The translations under genes were made by a program, and so were the position numbers. Below, one piece after another: positions 32,852 through 39,818 of a DNA stretch of 56,820 bases; position 1 is the stretch's first letter, and each line of letters starts with the position of its first letter. The stretch lies in assembly GCA_947459245.1 (NCBI GenBank), contig CANHCV010000008.1:1-56820 (forward strand), in the 5' to 3' direction. Below the pieces are notes generated by a model, which was not told the DNA's origin, did no database searches, and worked only from the letters and a program-made list of their open reading frames with translations. Origin of the DNA: Bacteroidota bacterium. Its GTDB lineage: Bacteria > Bacteroidota > Bacteroidia > UBA7662 > CANHCV01.

Positions 32852-33484
32852 TTAAAGTTCATTCCAACCTTTTCCGTTGAAGATCCGATCTCGGGATTTT
32901 TCAATGCGAGAGAATCGGGTGGCCGCCTGTTTGGCCTGAGCGAAATACAAAAAGTAACTCCGTTGGCGGCCGGGGGTGAGGGCATAAAAGGCGGCTGCGA
33001 ATGAGGGATCTTGTTGGAGCACCTCTTTCAATTCGGCGGGAAGTTCGTAGTCTTCGTGTTTCTTCACCGGCACTTTTTTTCCAGCAACCTCCAATTCTAC
33101 TGCTTCAAAAATGAAGGATTTGATAACATCTTCTTGTTCCCAAACCTGGGAAACGTGGGTGAATCGGTATTGCCTTCCCGACTGAGAGTTTTCGGTGGGT
33201 TGGGTTAATCGGTGGTCGGGATCGGTGAGAAGGGCGCCTTTGAAAAAATTGATGGAGGCGTATTCCTTGAAGGCGCCTAAAACGGCAATGTTTTTCTTAT
33301 TGGACGAGTAACAAGGATGACTCCATTTGAATTCCTCAACCAAGCCACAATCCAAAAGAATTTGCCGTAAAGCTTCTAAAATATCTCCCCAACGGTGCAC
33401 CTTGCAATCGGGTGTTGCGCCGTATTTGCATCGCATGCATCCTTGAATCAAATAGAGATTTACTGAAGGATTGAAGGTTTCCAT
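32852..33484 (-). CDS. YdeI/OmdA-like protein with DUF1801-type N-terminus
   Basis: 210 aa from ATG 33484. The N-terminus GCMRCKYGATPDCKVHRW contains a Cys cluster seen in this family. A DUF1801-like fold follows (HPCYSSNKKNIAVLGAFKEYASINFFKGALL). The C-terminal half is the OmdA/YdeI region (ELPAELKEVLQQDPSFAAAFYALTPGRQRSYFLYFAQAKQAATRFSRIEKS). Family members are annotated as bacteriocin-protection or stress proteins, with no firm biochemistry. The frame opens further upstream (33610) but inside the neighbouring gene. TATTTTTG (33489-33496) lies exactly 4 nt before ATG 33484, which fixes the start and suggests a leaderless mRNA. Confidence 0.82.
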   Translation of the reverse strand: METFNPSVNLYLIQGCMRCKYGATPDCKVHRWGDILEALRQILLDCGLVEEFKWSHPCYSSNKKNIAVLGAFKEYASINFFKGALLTDPDHRLTQPTENSQSGRQYRFTHVSQVWEQEDVIKSFIFEAVELEVAGKKVPVKKHEDYELPAELKEVLQQDPSFAAAFYALTPGRQRSYFLYFAQAKQAATRFSRIEKSRDRIFNGKGWNEL

Positions 33485-33518: not shown

Positions 33519-34169
33519 TTAAATTTTATGTTTCCAACCCAAGTAAACCACGTAGGTTCGGGCTGGATTTCTTTGATTGACTTCCCAATCGATCTGATAA
33601 CCCAATTCAACAGCGCTTTTCTTGTTCAATTCTTTTTCGATGCCGAGGAAATATCGAAAGTTCTCCATTTGCCGAGACGCGGAAGTAAGGTTGTACCAAG
33701 TATCAATTGAAGCGGATGCGCTGAACTTTTTAGGCAAGTCCCAGGCAAGTCCAAATTTATTGCGGATGAATTTATTGTTGCTGTTTAAAACGGTTTCTCG
33801 GTTGAAATCTGAAAATTGGTTTTGGTACCTCATTCGGAAAAAAGGTGAAATCTTTCCGAAATTCGGTTTGTATGCAAGATCGAAAAATGTTCGGCTTCGG
33901 AAGTTGCCCTCGTTCACCCAAGTCGCCCGGTAGTGTCCGGAAATTCTCAAGGCATTCACCGGGCGGTATTCCAAGGAAAACTCCTCAAAACCTCGATTAA
34001 CATGCGATATGTTTTGATCCAACCGGATTTGAGATTCCAATTCGGAGGACCATTTTTTATTCCATTTATGGCTTAGGGAAGCAGAAAACCATGCCCCGGC
34101 ATCGGAGTTTTGTGCATGCACGTTGCCCAGTAAAAAGCAACATCCAAGAATCAATCCAATCCATCTCAT
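33519..34169 (-). CDS. DUF2490 outer-membrane beta-barrel protein
   Basis: 216 aa. Signal peptide (...LLGNVHAQ) and then alternating beta strands rich in aromatic residues (WFSASLSHKWNKKWSSELESQIRLDQN, FSLEYRPVNALRISGHYRATW, FFRMRYQNQFSD) ending ...VVYLGWKHKI. This matches DUF2490, a predicted 10- to 12-stranded barrel of unknown function common in Bacteroidota. The ATG overlaps the stop of the DUF4956 gene by 4 bp. It is the last gene of the lipoprotein/VTC/DUF4956/DUF2490 operon, which suggests that the operon builds or uses something that reaches the outer membrane. Confidence 0.85.
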   Translation of the reverse strand: MRWIGLILGCCFLLGNVHAQNSDAGAWFSASLSHKWNKKWSSELESQIRLDQNISHVNRGFEEFSLEYRPVNALRISGHYRATWVNEGNFRSRTFFDLAYKPNFGKISPFFRMRYQNQFSDFNRETVLNSNNKFIRNKFGLAWDLPKKFSASASIDTWYNLTSASRQMENFRYFLGIEKELNKKSAVELGYQIDWEVNQRNPARTYVVYLGWKHKI

Positions 34170-34789
34170 TTTTCGTAGTAATAGATTCGAATTTGTGCAG
34201 AATCGCGAAGGAAATCTATCTTCTGCACCAAAACCCGGTGAACGGGAATGCCGGTTCTCAATCGGATATCGGCCATCAGTTGTTCGTGATTTTCAGTTGG
34301 AATCAATTCAATTTGGTCGTAGAAAATAACTTTGGAGCTTTCCTTTTTCATCAACCAGCTGCTTTCCAACAACCAGGTAATCAACAGAATAATGGCCGAA
34401 ATGGTGCTTAACTCTTCCCATCCTCCTTTGGTTACCGCATTCAAAACTCCCAAGGCAATCGACAAGAAAAGGTAACTCATGTCTTTGATGGAAATGTCTT
34501 CGGTGCGGTAACGAAGCATGCTAAACACAGCAAAAAGCCCGAATGCTGCACCCATCGATAGTTCTGCCTTGTTTAAAGAAAAGGATAGGAGGAAAATGAT
34601 GAGGTTGAAAATGATGTAGGTGAAAAACAGATCCTTGGTTTTGTACACCTGAAAATAAATGAAGCGAATGAGAATGATCACCGAAGAAAGATCGATGACC
34701 AAACGAATGAAAAATTTCTTGGAAAGTTTATCAAAAATATCGGCGGAGGCGGAAAGGACTTCTTCGTTAGCGATTTGCAATAAATCCAT
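34166..34789 (-). CDS. DUF4956 inner-membrane protein
   Basis: 207 aa. A short N-terminal helix, then three to four membrane segments (about 28-48, 55-75, 80-95, 130-150) and a cytoplasmic C-terminal domain (about 155-207; VIFYDQIELIPTENHEQLMADIRLRTG). The GAAFGLFAVFSMLRYRTEDISIKDMSYLF segment is the DUF4956 hallmark. The family commonly neighbours VTC-domain polyphosphate polymerases, as here, but its activity is unknown. The start overlaps the end of the VTC gene by 23 bp in another frame, implying translational coupling. Confidence 0.88.
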   Translation of the reverse strand: MDLLQIANEEVLSASADIFDKLSKKFFIRLVIDLSSVIILIRFIYFQVYKTKDLFFTYIIFNLIIFLLSFSLNKAELSMGAAFGLFAVFSMLRYRTEDISIKDMSYLFLSIALGVLNAVTKGGWEELSTISAIILLITWLLESSWLMKKESSKVIFYDQIELIPTENHEQLMADIRLRTGIPVHRVLVQKIDFLRDSAQIRIYYYEK

Positions 34790-35522
34790 GAGTTGTTTTT
34801 TTAAGGAGGTGAAGTTTGTTTTTAAAATGATTGGATTTGACTCCAGGATAAAGCGACATGATGCCGAAACAGTATTTACTAATTCCCCCGGAACGAATGT
34901 GGTGCTTCTGCATCAACCGAACAAAGGGCGACGGACACTGCCGGTCTTGTTTGACCTCGGCAATAACAATGTCGGGAAATGCTTTTTTCTGATTTTCGTT
35001 GGAGAAGGAAAGTTGTAAATCCAGGGTTACGCGCTCTTGTTGATATTTTCCAACCAACGTTAAGCGCTGGTATTCTACCCAAATGGAGGGTCGAAGGTCG
35101 GCCGTTTGAAATGGGGTTTTGGTTTGGACGAAGGCCGATGAAAAATCGTCGCCTAAGGTCGGTTGCTCCAACTTGATGCGATCCTTGATGGTTCTTCCCT
35201 TGTTGTTTTTCAACTTTACTTCGAGAAAACCCAGTTGAGACTCCACATAGGTGCGGTGCCTTACTTTGTACCGGTGGCCGTTTCCACGGTGATGTTGCAC
35301 AAAACAATCCAATTTTTCGGTATCGAAATAAAGGGTTTTGTAGGTGTTCAATCGAACTCCGCCAACTTCCAACAAGTGGTAATGGGGAACCATCTCCTTC
35401 AACATTTCAGGAAGAAAATGCAAAGGGAAATAGTATTTCCGATCGACCCTCGACATGAGGTCGGACTTGCCCAACTGGTCCAAACCAATGGGAGAAAACG
35501 AATCGATCGGTAAATCAATCAT
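34767..35522 (-). CDS. VTC-domain polyphosphate polymerase-like protein
   Basis: 251 aa. Triphosphate-tunnel fold of the VTC family: SRVDRKYYF (R25, R28, K29), TLYFDT (65-68), the R-x-K-x-R-x-R strand RYKVRHR (R84-R90), E101-V-K103 with KGRTIKDR, WVEYQR, RVTLDLQL, and IAEVKQD near the end. These are the basic and acidic tunnel residues that in yeast Vtc4 bind ATP, metal and the growing polyphosphate chain, so the protein looks catalytically competent. There are no membrane segments; it would need the DUF4956 partner to reach the membrane. The overlaps of 4 bp upstream and 23 bp downstream show a tight operon. Confidence 0.87.
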   Translation of the reverse strand: MIDLPIDSFSPIGLDQLGKSDLMSRVDRKYYFPLHFLPEMLKEMVPHYHLLEVGGVRLNTYKTLYFDTEKLDCFVQHHRGNGHRYKVRHRTYVESQLGFLEVKLKNNKGRTIKDRIKLEQPTLGDDFSSAFVQTKTPFQTADLRPSIWVEYQRLTLVGKYQQERVTLDLQLSFSNENQKKAFPDIVIAEVKQDRQCPSPFVRLMQKHHIRSGGISKYCFGIMSLYPGVKSNHFKNKLHLLKKTTHGFIANR

Positions 35523-35923
35523 CTTTTAATGATGATGGTATCTAGAATTAATTTCTCCCGTTGTTCCTTTATTTCAAACGGAATCAAAACGGGTTCAATT
35601 TTATTGGTATTCCCAGGCGTTACGTACCGATTGGAATACACGTACAACGAATATTTTCCGGGTTGCAAAAAAGGGAAAGTAAACCAGCCGTTGTACGAAG
35701 TTTTCACGTCCTCGCTGGGAATGGAATCATCGCCGTACATCAAATAAACGTCTTCGTCCATGGCTGGATATTCCGAATTGATGATGGAAAAGGTATTGTC
35801 CCAATCTTGGGTCCAAACTACTCCCGAAACGGATGCGAAACCACCGGTTCCCGATTCTTTGGCGCAGGAGGACAATCCAAAAGCGAGGAGGCCGAGGCAA
35901 AAAGAAGAAAAAAGCACTTTCAT
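35519..35923 (-). CDS. Small lipoprotein with carboxypeptidase-regulatory-like beta domain
   Basis: 134 aa from ATG 35923. Lipoprotein signal with lipobox LSSC (C20). The mature part (ASVSGVVWTQDW...DVYLMYGDD...TSYNGWFTFPFLQPGKYSLYVYSN) looks like a small Ig-like/CarboxypepD_reg fold of the kind found in surface lipoproteins. No close family is recognised. It is the first gene of the operon with the VTC polymerase-like gene (4-bp overlap). A -7 box (35930-35937) lies 6 nt upstream of the ATG. Confidence 0.75.
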   Translation of the reverse strand: MKVLFSSFCLGLLAFGLSSCAKESGTGGFASVSGVVWTQDWDNTFSIINSEYPAMDEDVYLMYGDDSIPSEDVKTSYNGWFTFPFLQPGKYSLYVYSNRYVTPGNTNKIEPVLIPFEIKEQREKLILDTIIIKR

Positions 35924-35929
35924 TGTTCT

Positions 35930-35937
35930 CAAAAATA
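35930..35937 (-). promoter_or_regulatory. -7 box of the lipoprotein/VTC operon
   Basis: TATTTTTG on the minus strand, 6 nt before ATG 35923. Confidence 0.58.
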
Positions 35938-36120: not shown

Positions 36121-36270
36121 TCGTTTCCCCAGGGGGCCGCCACCTTTCGACGAGCTCAAGGACCACGTATTTTATCCCGAAATGCTTCGGGACCTCCCCA
36201 TGCACAAAGCTAAATTTTCTCTTCCAAAATGTCAATGACTGAAACGTTTATAAACGTTTCCCGTTTGGGG
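36121..36270 (+). repeat. Repeat block with GGGCCGCCAC ... GCACAAAGCTAAATTTT and AAACGTTT pair
   Basis: It matches the reverse of 22306-22390 except for 23 extra bases (36144-36169 against 3 bases in the other copy) that carry TTCGACGAGCTCAAGG. It ends in GAAACGTTTATAAACGTTTC (36241-36260), a perfect palindrome. A degenerate second copy of its first part lies at 36316-36350. Confidence 0.85.
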
Positions 36271-36477: not shown

Positions 36478-36745
36478 AAACGGGGGCTACCCTTCGACCA
36501 AGCTCAGGGACCTCCGCCCCCTACCCAAGTGTAATTTACGGATTTTTCTCCCATTAGTCGTATTGAAACGTTTATAAACGTTTCAATACGACTAGCCATT
36601 TTCCAAACCCTATCTTTACTTCTGGGGAGGGGAGGGACGTAGTCCCCAAATTGATTTTTTGTTTTAAAATGAGGCAGATAATATGGGTGCCTTCGAGAAC
36701 CACTGGCACCGGAATTGCCTCGCTTCCTGTGGTTCTCGAAGGGTG
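36478..36745 (+). repeat. Intergenic mosaic repeat element, most complete copy
   Basis: Order: CAAACGGGGGCTAC, a 24-bp TTCGACCAAGCTCAGG insert (36491-36514), CCCCCTACCCAAGTGTAATT, a perfect 40-bp palindrome centred on AAACGTTTATAAACGTTT (36555-36594), CTAGCCATTTT, TATCTTTACTTCTGGGGAGG, GTCCCC, a TTTTAAAAT stretch, and an inverted repeat of 14 bp (36690-36703 with 36729-36742; CCTTCGAGAACCAC). Parts recur at 3980-4160, 18070-18190 and 22215-22300. Confidence 0.88.
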
Positions 36746-36828
36746 GTCCCTGAGCCCGTCGAAGGGTGGTCCCTGAGCCCGTCGAAGGGTGGTCCATGAG
36801 CCTGGTCGAAAGGCGGTTCCTGAGTTTT
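36737..36828 (+). repeat. 23-bp tandem repeat upstream of mnmE
   Basis: Units start at 36737, 36760, 36783 and 36807 (period 23, 23, 24). Each reads CGAAGGGTGGTCC-TGAGCC-GT, the reverse complement of the TTCGAC/GCTCAGG module found singly elsewhere. The array ends directly at the mnmE -7 box. Confidence 0.9.
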
Positions 36829-36835
36829 ACCTTTG
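36828..36835 (+). promoter_or_regulatory. -7 box of mnmE (leaderless type)
   Basis: TACCTTTG, then TGGC, then ATG 36840: 4 nt spacing, the same arrangement as pirin at 21147. Confidence 0.65.
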
Positions 36836-36839
36836 TGGC

Positions 36840-38183
36840 ATGAGTCAATCTGTTATCGCTGCACTTGCCACCCCGCCCGGCCGATCGGCCATTGGGGTAA
36901 TTCGCCTTTCCGGGGCGGGATGTTTGAAGGTGTTGAACCGATGTTTCAAAGGAACCAACTTGGAAGAAGTGCCCGGAAATACCGTGCATTACGGATGGAT
37001 TACCGACGGTTCTACCTTGATTGATGAGGTCATGGTGGCGGTATTTAAGGCTCCTAAAAGTTACACTAAAGAAGATAGCGCCGAAATTTCGGGGCACGGT
37101 TCGCCGTTTCTCTTGAAACGAATTTTAGAACGCCTCATTCAAGAGGGAGCCACATTGGCTGGTCCCGGCGAATTCACCATGCGTGCCTTCGCCCATGGTC
37201 GATTCGATTTGGCACAAGCGGAGGCGGTGGCGGATCTCATTGCGGCCGACAGCGATGCTCAAAAAGATTTGGCGTTGAGTCAGTTGCGCGGAGGGGTGTC
37301 GCATGACATCGCCATTTTGAGGGATGAATTGATTCAGTTTGCGAGTTTGATTGAATTGGAATTGGATTTTTCGGAAGAAGATGTTGAGTTTGCCGATCGC
37401 TCGGCTCTGCTTCGTTTGATAGAAAAGATCAGAACTCGAATGCAAGAGCTGATGCAGGGATTTCAGTGGGGAAATGCCTTGAAAGAAGGCGTTCCGGTAG
37501 CCATTGTGGGGATGCCCAACGCTGGAAAGAGTACGTTATTGAATGCCCTTTTAAATGAAGAGCGCGCTTTGGTGAGCGACATTCCGGGTACCACGCGGGA
37601 TGTGATTGAAGAAGTTCTGCACATTGACGGAATTGGATTTCGGTTTATTGATACGGCGGGTTATCGAGACACGGTGGATGTGGTTGAAGCCATGGGCATT
37701 GAGAGAACTTTGGAACGACTAAAGTCGGCAACCGTGGTGTTGTGGGTGATGGACGGAACCGAAGATGCTGGATTAAAGGAACGATTGGGGTCGGAGATGA
37801 AAGCTGCGGGGAAAACCGTCATTGCGTTGAGAAACAAGGCTGATCAATACGCCTTGAGCGCTGGTACGATGATGAATGATCAGTTGGTCATTTCGGCCAA
37901 GGAGCGTTGGGGATTGGATGTGTTGAAGGCCGAATTATTGCGGCAGTCGTTAGCTCAGAAAACCGATGGAGCTTTGGTAAGCAACGTTCGTCATTACGAG
38001 GCTTTGAAAAAAGCCGATGAGGCGTTGGATCGGGTTACGGCCGCCTTGGATTTGGGCGTTGGTGGGGAGCTTTTGGCGGCCGACATTCGGGAAGCCTTGT
38101 TCCAACTGGGGTTGATCACCGGTCAAATCACCACCGACGATTTGTTGGAATCGATTTTTACGCGGTTTTGTATCGGAAAGTAA
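36840..38183 (+). CDS. mnmE: tRNA modification GTPase MnmE (TrmE)
   Basis: 447 aa. The N-terminal formyl-THF-binding domain opens with DTIAA-like IAALATPPGRSAIGVIRLSG. The central G domain has G1 GMPNAGKST (near 223), G2 PGTTRD, G3 DTAGYRDT and G4 NKAD. The C-terminus is the invariant FCIGK, whose Cys is needed in vivo. With MnmG it builds the 5-carboxymethylaminomethyl group on U34 of tRNAs, including tRNA-Gln(UUG) of the kind encoded at 9170. The start ATG at 36840 is chosen because it follows a -7 box and matches the family N-terminus; the frame extension to 36789 lies in the 23-bp repeat. Confidence 0.97.
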   Translation: MSQSVIAALATPPGRSAIGVIRLSGAGCLKVLNRCFKGTNLEEVPGNTVHYGWITDGSTLIDEVMVAVFKAPKSYTKEDSAEISGHGSPFLLKRILERLIQEGATLAGPGEFTMRAFAHGRFDLAQAEAVADLIAADSDAQKDLALSQLRGGVSHDIAILRDELIQFASLIELELDFSEEDVEFADRSALLRLIEKIRTRMQELMQGFQWGNALKEGVPVAIVGMPNAGKSTLLNALLNEERALVSDIPGTTRDVIEEVLHIDGIGFRFIDTAGYRDTVDVVEAMGIERTLERLKSATVVLWVMDGTEDAGLKERLGSEMKAAGKTVIALRNKADQYALSAGTMMNDQLVISAKERWGLDVLKAELLRQSLAQKTDGALVSNVRHYEALKKADEALDRVTAALDLGVGGELLAADIREALFQLGLITGQITTDDLLESIFTRFCIGK

Positions 38184-38353: not shown

Positions 38354-39292
38354 TTATTCATTCAATTTCTTAAATCTATCAGTTATTAAATGAGTATACT
38401 CATCCTTAAATTCCTCAGTTAAAAAACTTTGATCAATCCATGAAAGCCAAGTGGGTAAAATGGATTCAAATCTTACATAAATAGCCTCGAGTGATTTATT
38501 ATTGATTTTCAGAGATGTGGCCAATACTTGGAAATCGTTTCGATTCAATTTGCGCTTTTTACCATTGATGGTGAGTGCTGATTCTTCTTTGTCTTCCGGC
38601 ATCACAATGGCTGTGTTCAGTAAATCATTGGCAGGTGAGAGTTCAAATTCTCCTAAAGAATTTTCAATAAGAGAGAAATTTTTCAAATGCATGTCTGCGT
38701 TGCCAGTGAGGTAACAGAATAATACGATTTCAAAAAGTCGCTGTGCTTCAAATCCCTGATTCTTGGAAAACGTATAGACCAATTTCCCAACCATTTCAAT
38801 TGAGCCTCGATACTTGTGTTCCGTTAGGTTTTCACTCAATTGACAAAAATCTTCTACTGCAATTTTATCACCTTTGTTTCTGTCAAAACGTTTGGTTATA
38901 TAAGCCAATTCTCCTGATTTTAATCGAATCAATCCATGCTTGGCTGTCTTTATTTTTACTAATTCAGCTAAATGCATGGTAACATCTTCATTCTCTGGAA
39001 GCTCTTTGAATTGGAAGGTTGGAGGCTTTAAAATAAAATCGCCATGAAAGCCCACAATGGTTAATCTTGAAGGTTCATTTTTGTGCTTCTCAACATTAAG
39101 AGACAGCTTGGGTTGTACGCCGGTAATCGCTTTGCTTTGAATGACGATTTGTTTGGCGAGCTCTTCTAACTGTTGCAAGTCAAAATCAATAACAGGAGCT
39201 TGGGGTGTACCAAATAATTTTTTTATACAAGAAGGATGATAATCGTGCAGATCATTCTCTAAAACTCGATAACAATATAAACACTTGCTCAT
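38354..39292 (-). CDS. hipT: HipT-type serine/threonine kinase toxin (HipA family, short form)
   Basis: 312 aa. An N-terminal zinc-ribbon-like cluster C4-x2-C7...H19-x2-C22 is followed by the HipA kinase core: GVQPKLSLNV (Gly-rich loop region near 58-67), FILKPP (ATP-binding Lys), catalytic GNADMHLKNFSL (D200, N205) and SPANDLLNT (D223, DFG-equivalent). It lacks the HipA N-terminal subdomain 1, which is encoded separately just upstream, as in the HipBST systems of E. coli O127 and Legionella, where HipT phosphorylates tryptophanyl-tRNA synthetase. The target here is unknown. The ATG overlaps the hipS stop by 4 bp. Its base composition is clearly more AT-rich than mnmE and comM on either side, pointing to acquisition by transfer. 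Confidence 0.88.
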   Translation of the reverse strand: MSKCLYCYRVLENDLHDYHPSCIKKLFGTPQAPVIDFDLQQLEELAKQIVIQSKAITGVQPKLSLNVEKHKNEPSRLTIVGFHGDFILKPPTFQFKELPENEDVTMHLAELVKIKTAKHGLIRLKSGELAYITKRFDRNKGDKIAVEDFCQLSENLTEHKYRGSIEMVGKLVYTFSKNQGFEAQRLFEIVLFCYLTGNADMHLKNFSLIENSLGEFELSPANDLLNTAIVMPEDKEESALTINGKKRKLNRNDFQVLATSLKINNKSLEAIYVRFESILPTWLSWIDQSFLTEEFKDEYTHLITDRFKKLNE

Positions 39293-39615
39293 GATTCCTT
39301 TTCATTTGAGATGATAGATACACAACCAATGCTATTCTTGCACAGGGTTAATAATAATCCAAAGCGATCACTCGGCTTAATTTTCCAATTATTGAGGGCT
39401 ATACTTAAAAGCCATCCTTCTGGAATTAAACCATCAAAAAATGGAAATAAAACTTTGCTCGAAAATGCTTTTTGTTGCAAGGGTAAAGTTAGACTTACTG
39501 GTTTGGAATTTACGTTAGCCAAATACTCAGCATTATATTGAAATAGAAAGCCTTCATCCGATTAATGGATGATGCCTGCAAATTCATTTTTGTAATATAC
39601 TTGTGCTTGTCTCAT
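39289..39615 (-). pseudogene. hipS: hipS-like antitoxin (HipA N-subdomain 1) with in-frame TAA
   Basis: The frame starts at ATG 39615, overlapping the hipB stop as ATGA, and reads MRQAQVYYKNEFAGIIH. It then meets TAA at 39562-39564 and continues in the same frame with SDEGFLFQYNAEYLAN...PVSLTLPL...VLFPFFDGLIPEGWLL to the stop at 39289. The two parts together are a normal HipS/couple_hipA protein of 108 residues, so a single substitution (for example CAA to TAA) explains the stop. The downstream part could restart only at a TTG (39522). The gene overlaps hipB and hipT by 4 bp each, so the operon architecture is intact. Either the antitoxin is inactivated, a truncated form suffices, or the base is a sequencing error. 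Confidence 0.85.
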
Positions 39616-39818
39616 GATTCACTTTTTGGAATAACACCTAATTCACTTCCAAACAAGGCCAATACCTGGTTCACTTTGTCCAGTTGAACTGTTTGTTTCC
39701 CTTGCTCTAATTCACGCACAAAGCGAAGCCCCACACCAGCTCTTTCGGCCAATTCTGGCTGTGTAAGCTTGAGTTGCTTTCTTCTTTCTTTAATAAATGT
39801 AGCAATTGTTGTACTCAT
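39612..39818 (-). CDS. hipB: HipB-type helix-turn-helix repressor
   Basis: 68 aa, a single Cro/C1-type HTH (FIKERRKQLKLTQPELAERAGVGLRFVRELEQGKQTVQLDKVNQVLALFG). This is the usual HipB: it represses its operon and contributes to toxin control. It starts 5 nt from the nearest of three palindromic operators that cover its promoter (39823-39918). It is the first gene of hipB-hipS-hipT, with 4-bp overlaps throughout. The C-terminal residues GVIPKSES are short and lack a long tail. Confidence 0.92.
   Translation of the reverse strand: MSTTIATFIKERRKQLKLTQPELAERAGVGLRFVRELEQGKQTVQLDKVNQVLALFGSELGVIPKSES

Follow-up and report, generated by a model that had tools for sequence, protein, structure and literature searches.

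We analyzed a 56,820-nucleotide stretch of DNA from a Bacteroidota bacterium (contig CANHCV010000008.1 of assembly GCA_947459245.1, positions 1 to 56,820; hereafter, the window) and focused on the four genes at 33519-35923 of its minus strand, which center on a VTC-family triphosphate-tunnel protein and a DUF4956 membrane protein. This pair is kept together across Bacteroidota, usually within a longer set of envelope genes, and the genomes that carry it tend also to carry CotH kinase genes. Our preferred reading, to which we assign a probability of about 0.4, is that the VTC-DUF4956 core makes polyphosphate and transfers its product over the inner membrane to serve extracytoplasmic phosphate chemistry.

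The four open reading frames (ORFs) overlap. The operon begins with a lipoprotein of 134 amino acids (35519..35923, lipobox LSSC) that has a small beta-sandwich-like domain, with weak CarboxypepD_reg and fn3_3 matches below cut-off. It continues with the VTC-family protein, a putative polyphosphate polymerase of 251 amino acids (34767..35522); a DUF4956 inner-membrane protein of 207 amino acids with five predicted transmembrane helices and a C-terminal beta-alpha-beta-beta domain (34166..34789); and a DUF2490 outer-membrane beta-barrel of 216 amino acids with a signal peptide (33519..34169). The overlaps measure 4 nt between lipoprotein and VTC (35519-35522), 23 nt between VTC and DUF4956 (34767-34789), and 4 nt between DUF4956 and DUF2490 (34166-34169), a pattern resembling that of a translationally coupled operon. 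Pfam searches matched the VTC protein to PF09359 (E 6e-29, 101.6 bits, cut-off 23, profile positions 2-235 of 235), the DUF4956 protein to PF16316 (E 3e-52, 177 bits, cut-off 30.6), and the DUF2490 protein to PF10677 (E 3e-17, 63.4 bits, cut-off 29.8). An NCBIfam search gave no match for any of the four proteins up to E 0.01.

PF09359 is the sole Pfam match of the VTC protein, which has neither an SPX domain nor a fused membrane domain, and an assembly-wide search found its gene in single copy in the 2.35-Mb assembly. A profile of nine bacterial VTC proteins matched Vtc4 chains in the PDB across the whole domain (best 5.5e-16). In the profile alignment, Vtc4 residues R196, K200, R264, R266, K281, and R361 correspond to R25, K29, R88, R90, K103, and R153 of the window protein, and R373, E426, K428, S457, and K458 to R164, E189, K191, S215, and K216 (window numbers beyond 150 were taken from invariant columns of the bacterial VTC alignment). 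K458 is described as catalytic in Vtc4 (PMC4641920), and R264, R266, and E426 are the residues mutated to inactivate yeast VTC (PMC9911596). Across 128 VTC relatives, K29, R88, R90, K103, R153, R164, E189, K191, and K216 are invariant, R25 is retained in 127, and S215 in 125. Judged by these residues, the bacterial VTC proteins are polymerase-like apart from one acidic position, to which we return below. The genome also has a PPK1 gene, and bulk storage polyphosphate would therefore have another maker.

Conservation of the neighborhood was examined in a sample of 60 genomes, the window's own and its relatives, of which 33 had VTC, 39 had DUF4956, and 43 had DUF2490. DUF4956 lay within 1 kb and on the same strand at 35 of 38 VTC matches. 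DUF2490 lay within 2.5 kb of 20 of the 38, where ~0.0025 would be expected per VTC; this count, made with Pfam, is a minimum, since in-house profiles detected more. Gene order was then counted in the best 80 of 375 confirmed loci, which were picked by likeness to the window group and are not an even sample; 79 were used, L108 being left out because the overlap filter had removed its VTC ORF. DUF4956 follows VTC in 73 of the 79, and DUF2490 is found within three genes downstream in 58. Because many contigs are cut, the counts on the upstream side are minima: a relative of the window lipoprotein lies within three genes upstream of VTC in at least 51 loci, a small secreted protein with weak YD/RHS/MORN-like matches lies immediately upstream in at least 65, and a CotH protein lies within five genes upstream in at least 34. 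The usual order is CotH, lipoprotein, small protein, VTC, DUF4956, DUF2490; the window operon is without the small secreted protein and without an adjacent CotH gene. In a wider locus set, VTC and DUF4956 were adjacent in 120 of 129 loci (the wider locus, tree, and residue sets omit L111, L125, and L127, which duplicate others, and further duplicates may remain). The initial annotation of the window had given the four genes these identities, had described the basic tunnel residues as intact, and had named absence of conserved linkage as grounds for abandoning its proposal. The three Pfam matches and the lipobox agree with the first claim, and the nine Vtc4 positions invariant among relatives agree with the second, with a reservation for D27 at the T198 position; the linkage is conserved.

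A strong association emerged with CotH, whose Bacillus subtilis member is reportedly a Ser/Thr kinase that polyphosphorylates CotB (PMC7821199). Among the 60 genomes, CotH was present in 33 of 33 with VTC versus 10 of 27 without (p 2e-8). With one genome per family (39 genomes), the figures were 20 of 20 versus 4 of 19 (p 1.5e-7), and in a phylum-wide draw of 118 they were 23 of 23 versus 24 of 95 (p 9e-12; not all CotH matches of this draw are listed, which leaves the presence counts unaffected). Pooling both samples gave 54 distinct Bacteroidota VTC genomes, 54 of them with CotH. The converse fails, as CotH also occurs in genomes without VTC. By comparison, genome co-occurrence of DUF2490 with DUF4956 was weak (p 0.08 in the 60 genomes, p 0.02 with one per family) because DUF2490 is widespread alone; the idea of DUF2490 as an obligatory partner was thereby weakened, and the strongly co-occurring gene is CotH instead. 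In the window genome, CotH matches lie on three other contigs; one shares 48% identity over 399 columns with an operon-linked CotH, and a same-genus relative of that protein has, by eye, a tail like those of the type IX secretion system (T9SS). Both CotH proteins tested have T9SS sorting tails, and a crude pattern found a tail-like motif in 50 of 76 CotH calls. Upstream of CotH in several operons (L034:945-3652, L036, L082, and others), we also observed two T9SS-tailed proteins, one arylsulfotransferase-like and the other small and carbohydrate-binding-like.

We next considered the membrane partner. A DUF4956 model built from a 26-sequence alignment reached a mean predicted local distance difference test score (pLDDT) of 74 and a predicted template modeling score of 0.56, with five membrane-type helices and the beta-alpha-beta-beta end domain. 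R29 and R42, both within the first predicted membrane helix, are invariant in the 26 proteins, and R93, R95, and K102, near the turn between helices 3 and 4, are basic in all 26. In yeast VTC, basic residues of the first transmembrane helix line a membrane channel to which synthesis is coupled (PMC9911596). With R29 and R42 in its helix 1, DUF4956 could by analogy plausibly act as a polyphosphate conduit. Kinship with MgtC has been suggested for the DUF4956 homologue SIR_1592 (PMC12345266). The window protein had no Pfam match to the MgtC family (PF02308), hhalign comparison with three MgtC proteins only gave no similarity, and a remote DUF4956 protein gave a sub-threshold MgtC match (E 0.06). 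The suggested kinship thus finds no support in this small profile comparison or in fold searches with a model of middling confidence.

The DUF2490 model (pLDDT 86.5) has 11 long strands, KdgM-type porins having 12, and its closest folds were KdgM (Z 16.4, root-mean-square deviation 2.3 over 155 residues), NanC (16.3), a KdgM complex, and VhGalP (15.9), followed by autotransporter and secretion barrels at Z 15.4 and below. This predicted likeness to porins is in keeping with the outer-membrane barrel identity given at first. By alternate-residue hydropathy, R49, R93, R112, R114, R136, and R172 would point inward, and we asked whether this arginine ladder could mark export of polyphosphate. As specific evidence it was rejected, because the ladder is common to unlinked DUF2490s: compared with 80 linked barrels, 20 unlinked ones (L151-L170, chosen among stronger Pfam matches, not at random) keep each position in 20 or 19 of 20. 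Nor did lumen charge differ, the mean net charge of the inferred inward residues being 4.85 in linked and 5.65 in unlinked barrels (p 0.32) and +1 in the window barrel; the barrel in each stretch was taken as the longest ORF, without a separate profile check. Position 116, beside two inward arginines, is Gln in 77 of 80 operon-linked barrels and Glu in 20 of 20 unlinked ones, and linked barrels have more basic residues at positions 81 and 138. None of these features singles out the linked DUF2490 barrels as built for polyphosphate.

Another form of the cassette has an adaptor at its side. Of the 120 loci in which VTC adjoins DUF4956, 14 have a protein of ~355 residues, similar to HlyD periplasmic adaptors, next to one of the two; against PF13437 (cut-off 22.2), two of three tested scored 25.0 and 39.5 bits and the third 20.1. 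The barrel occurs in 82 of the 120 loci, the adaptor in 14, and both in none. On a quick tree (119 VTC rows, after length and adjacency filters), the 14 rows with the adaptor cluster in a single region and the label changes twice, so that the alternation appears to be largely one split between lineages, and we do not claim repeated swapping. In three HlyD-type loci, a phytase-like propeller is encoded two genes away. Neither this variant, nor the CotH association, nor the small secreted protein between lipoprotein and VTC had been seen in the initial annotation.

Loci outside Bacteroidota were drawn from plasmid-collection records, one of which, from Streptomyces, is without annotation. Deinococcus taeanensis and Pseudobutyrivibrio have the order CotH-VTC-DUF4956, the former with no barrel alongside and the latter also with glycosyltransferases, and Planococcus has VTC-DUF4956-CotH. 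Nitratireductor carries DUF4956-VTC-phosphate transporter-phytase-like, Aminobacter carries DUF4956-VTC-phytase-like, and in Deinococcus QL22 a HAD acid phosphatase and Phn ABC genes lie near the VTC-DUF4956 pair. These phosphate-related neighbors argue for real phosphate handling. PMC12345266 reports that its analyses detected the three-gene synteny nowhere but in pel loci; our Deinococcus taeanensis and Planococcus stretches have that synteny, and neither contains a gene annotated as pel. Separately, a table in PMC2879425 (NELoc-2) names the genes beside two VTC genes as tubulin/FtsZ GTPases of 222-226 amino acids in the cytoplasmic membrane, and from their size and position these may be DUF4956 genes.

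Gene identities, overlaps, conserved order and residues, and co-occurrence were obtained here directly, and the barrel fold by prediction. On these we propose that the operon would supply, within a Gram-negative envelope, a bacterial equivalent of the catalytic and membrane core of yeast VTC. Its residues suggest that the VTC protein would make polyphosphate from ATP on the cytoplasmic side. DUF4956 would be its membrane partner, through which the chain, or its phosphate, might leave the cytoplasm. Going by linkage, the lipoprotein, the small secreted protein, and the DUF2490 barrel (or the HlyD-type adaptor) may receive or route the product in the envelope. Co-occurrence suggests that in Bacteroidota the product would usually serve phosphorylation outside the cytoplasm, carried out by secreted CotH kinases, and that in certain other bacteria it may serve the scavenging of phosphate together with phosphate transporters and phytase-like proteins.

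Several observations weigh against this proposal, and some of them favor a different role, in which the module is a regulator: the VTC protein would bind or hydrolyze triphosphate or polyphosphate and so sense phosphate or energy state, and DUF4956 with its cytoplasmic C-terminal domain would adjust production of a surface polymer or surface protein. The strongest point comes from Streptococcus intermedius, where VTC deletion has no reported aggregation or Pel phenotype, DUF4956 loss raises Pel, and CotH loss lowers it (PMC12345266), phenotypes that are not as predicted by a simple linear supply line and that would suit regulation. The same source describes the C-terminal domain of the DUF4956 homologue as ACT-like, and our model of the window protein has a beta-alpha-beta-beta domain there. 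The position of Vtc4 T198 is D27 in the window protein and Asp or Glu in all 128 relatives. In hydrolases of the triphosphate tunnel metalloenzyme (TTM) family, an acidic patch binds a second metal, and Vtc4 has basic residues there instead (PMC4641920). The corresponding region of the window protein has basic R25 and K191 and acidic D27, with the correspondence to AtTTM3 drawn from that paper and motif spacing, without structural alignment. Because the acidic residue lies near the site of the TTM acidic-patch glutamates, hydrolase activity of the VTC protein is possible. With regard to DUF4956, R29 and R42 fall on different helix faces by a simple 100-degree count, and fold searches with the model, of middling confidence at its pLDDT of 74, gave no trustworthy match, so that the channel is hypothetical. 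As for CotH, kinship among genomes was handled through the one-per-family subset alone, with no tree correction; Bacteroides ihuae, one of 14 named controls, has VTC, DUF4956, and DUF2490 with CotH absent; and there is no CotH among the genes adjoining the window operon. On the other side, the Vtc4 polymerase residues, K458 included, are retained throughout, and periplasmic and outer-membrane partners (DUF2490, the HlyD adaptor) point to outward traffic. We consider a regulatory module somewhat unlikely.

If traffic is outward, its route and its cargo could still differ from those proposed. The suggestion of a full route to the surface, in which the inner membrane is the site of polyphosphate synthesis and the DUF2490 barrel is the exit through which the polymer reaches the cell surface for display or shedding, draws on the linkage in 58 of 79 loci, on a predicted fold nearest to porins for anionic oligosaccharides, and on the arginines inferred to line the lumen; we regard it as rather improbable, given that unlinked DUF2490s have the ladder equally, that linked lumens are no more charged (the window barrel only +1), and that some VTC-DUF4956 pairs among the 120 loci are without a barrel. 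The polyphosphate route first proposed for this operon is favored in part by phosphate-related neighbors elsewhere, and its specific handling at or across the outer membrane is not favored by the barrel comparison. The cargo might instead be another phosphorylated product, such as surface-polysaccharide phosphates or a nucleotide-derived polymer that the enzyme builds or trims, with the operon decorating the outer surface. The cassette does occur within Gram-positive polysaccharide loci (PMC7112168), as in Pseudobutyrivibrio with its glycosyltransferases, but no glycosyltransferase was identified within the window operon, and the neighbors seen in Alphaproteobacteria and Deinococcus QL22 suggest inorganic phosphate instead, so that this looks quite improbable. 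A more specific version of export would have the VTC/DUF4956 phosphate polymer power the surface CotH kinases, with the lipoprotein, small protein, and barrel or HlyD adaptor as a delivery line. ATP should be scarce at the cell surface; even so, we view this version as a long shot.

Around the operon, a possible Bacteroidota -7 promoter element, TATTTTTG, lies just 5' of the lipoprotein start (35930..35937, minus strand). It follows TAnnTTTG, which we take to be the consensus of that element, and is a weak pattern match, the pattern having 7 matches in L001 against 3.0 expected. At the other end, a DUF1801 plus OmdA (YdeI-like) gene (32852-33484, minus strand) starts 34 nt past the DUF2490 stop on the same strand; such a gene is also found 3' of DUF2490 in L031, L032, and L113 and is possibly the operon's last gene. 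The gap between the lipoprotein and the gene starting at 36789 holds a palindromic 21-mer in two exact copies (36240-36260 and 36564-36584) and a 19-mer in three tandem copies with 23-nt spacing (36736-36800). The ORF at 36789-38183 (plus strand), presumably encoding the tRNA-modification GTPase MnmE, is a conserved neighbor upstream of the operon within this genus. Beyond it, 38354-39818 (minus strand) holds two ORFs and a small helix-turn-helix protein, which we take to be a HipA-type kinase in two pieces and its partner, likely a HipBA-like toxin-antitoxin set.

Were the preferred reading of the VTC-DUF4956 core true, bacteria would possess a VTC-like machine that synthesizes phosphate polymer and exports it from the cytoplasm, a function familiar from eukaryotic vacuoles. 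The tie to CotH would then be relevant to the open question of protein phosphorylation outside the cell, where ATP should be scarce. The linkage is a small gene set in culturable genera (Runella, Larkinella, Emticicia, and Deinococcus), and it gives context to DUF4956 and DUF2490, families seldom mentioned in the literature searched.

Finally, we compared the operon with known systems. PPK1 would share the proposed product, polyphosphate, and has its own gene in the window genome; its fold is unrelated to VTC. The KdgM, NanC, and VhGalP porins resemble the barrel in predicted fold over 155-176 residues (Z 15.9-16.4) and in basic inward residues, but identity is ~10%, and a number of autotransporter and secretion barrels come within 1-2 Z units of them. 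In Bacteroides thetaiotaomicron, DUF4956 and DUF2490 are adjacent as in the window (BT3498-BT3499); a table in PMC10434189 has one iron-response row for them (-7.6-fold, P 0.175), with no VTC or function given there. The yeast VTC complex (Vtc1/Vtc3/Vtc4) shares a tunnel domain with the Vtc4 catalytic residues and a dedicated membrane partner. It differs in that the window VTC protein has no SPX or fused membrane domain and has Asp in place of T198, and in that its partner is DUF4956, not a Vtc1-like three-helix protein, with bacterial envelope partners added.

The closest relative is a CotH-polyphosphate polymerase-DUF4956 cassette already described in Gram-positive pel loci (PMC7112168), in places extended by DUF4832 and represented in S. 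intermedius by SIR_1592-1594 (PMC12345266). It has the same VTC-DUF4956 pair and a secreted CotH partner. In the window genome, VTC and DUF4956 are likewise adjacent and CotH is present on other contigs, often being adjacent in relatives; unlike in the pel cassette, the pair is joined by a lipoprotein and a DUF2490 barrel. The activity had been put forward as one not known to be described for bacteria; the synthase half has a published relative in the pel cassette. For the Bacteroidota envelope form, no description was found in the literature searched (no preprints and few subscription papers), and this form looks new, as a Gram-negative variant of a known but unexplained cassette.

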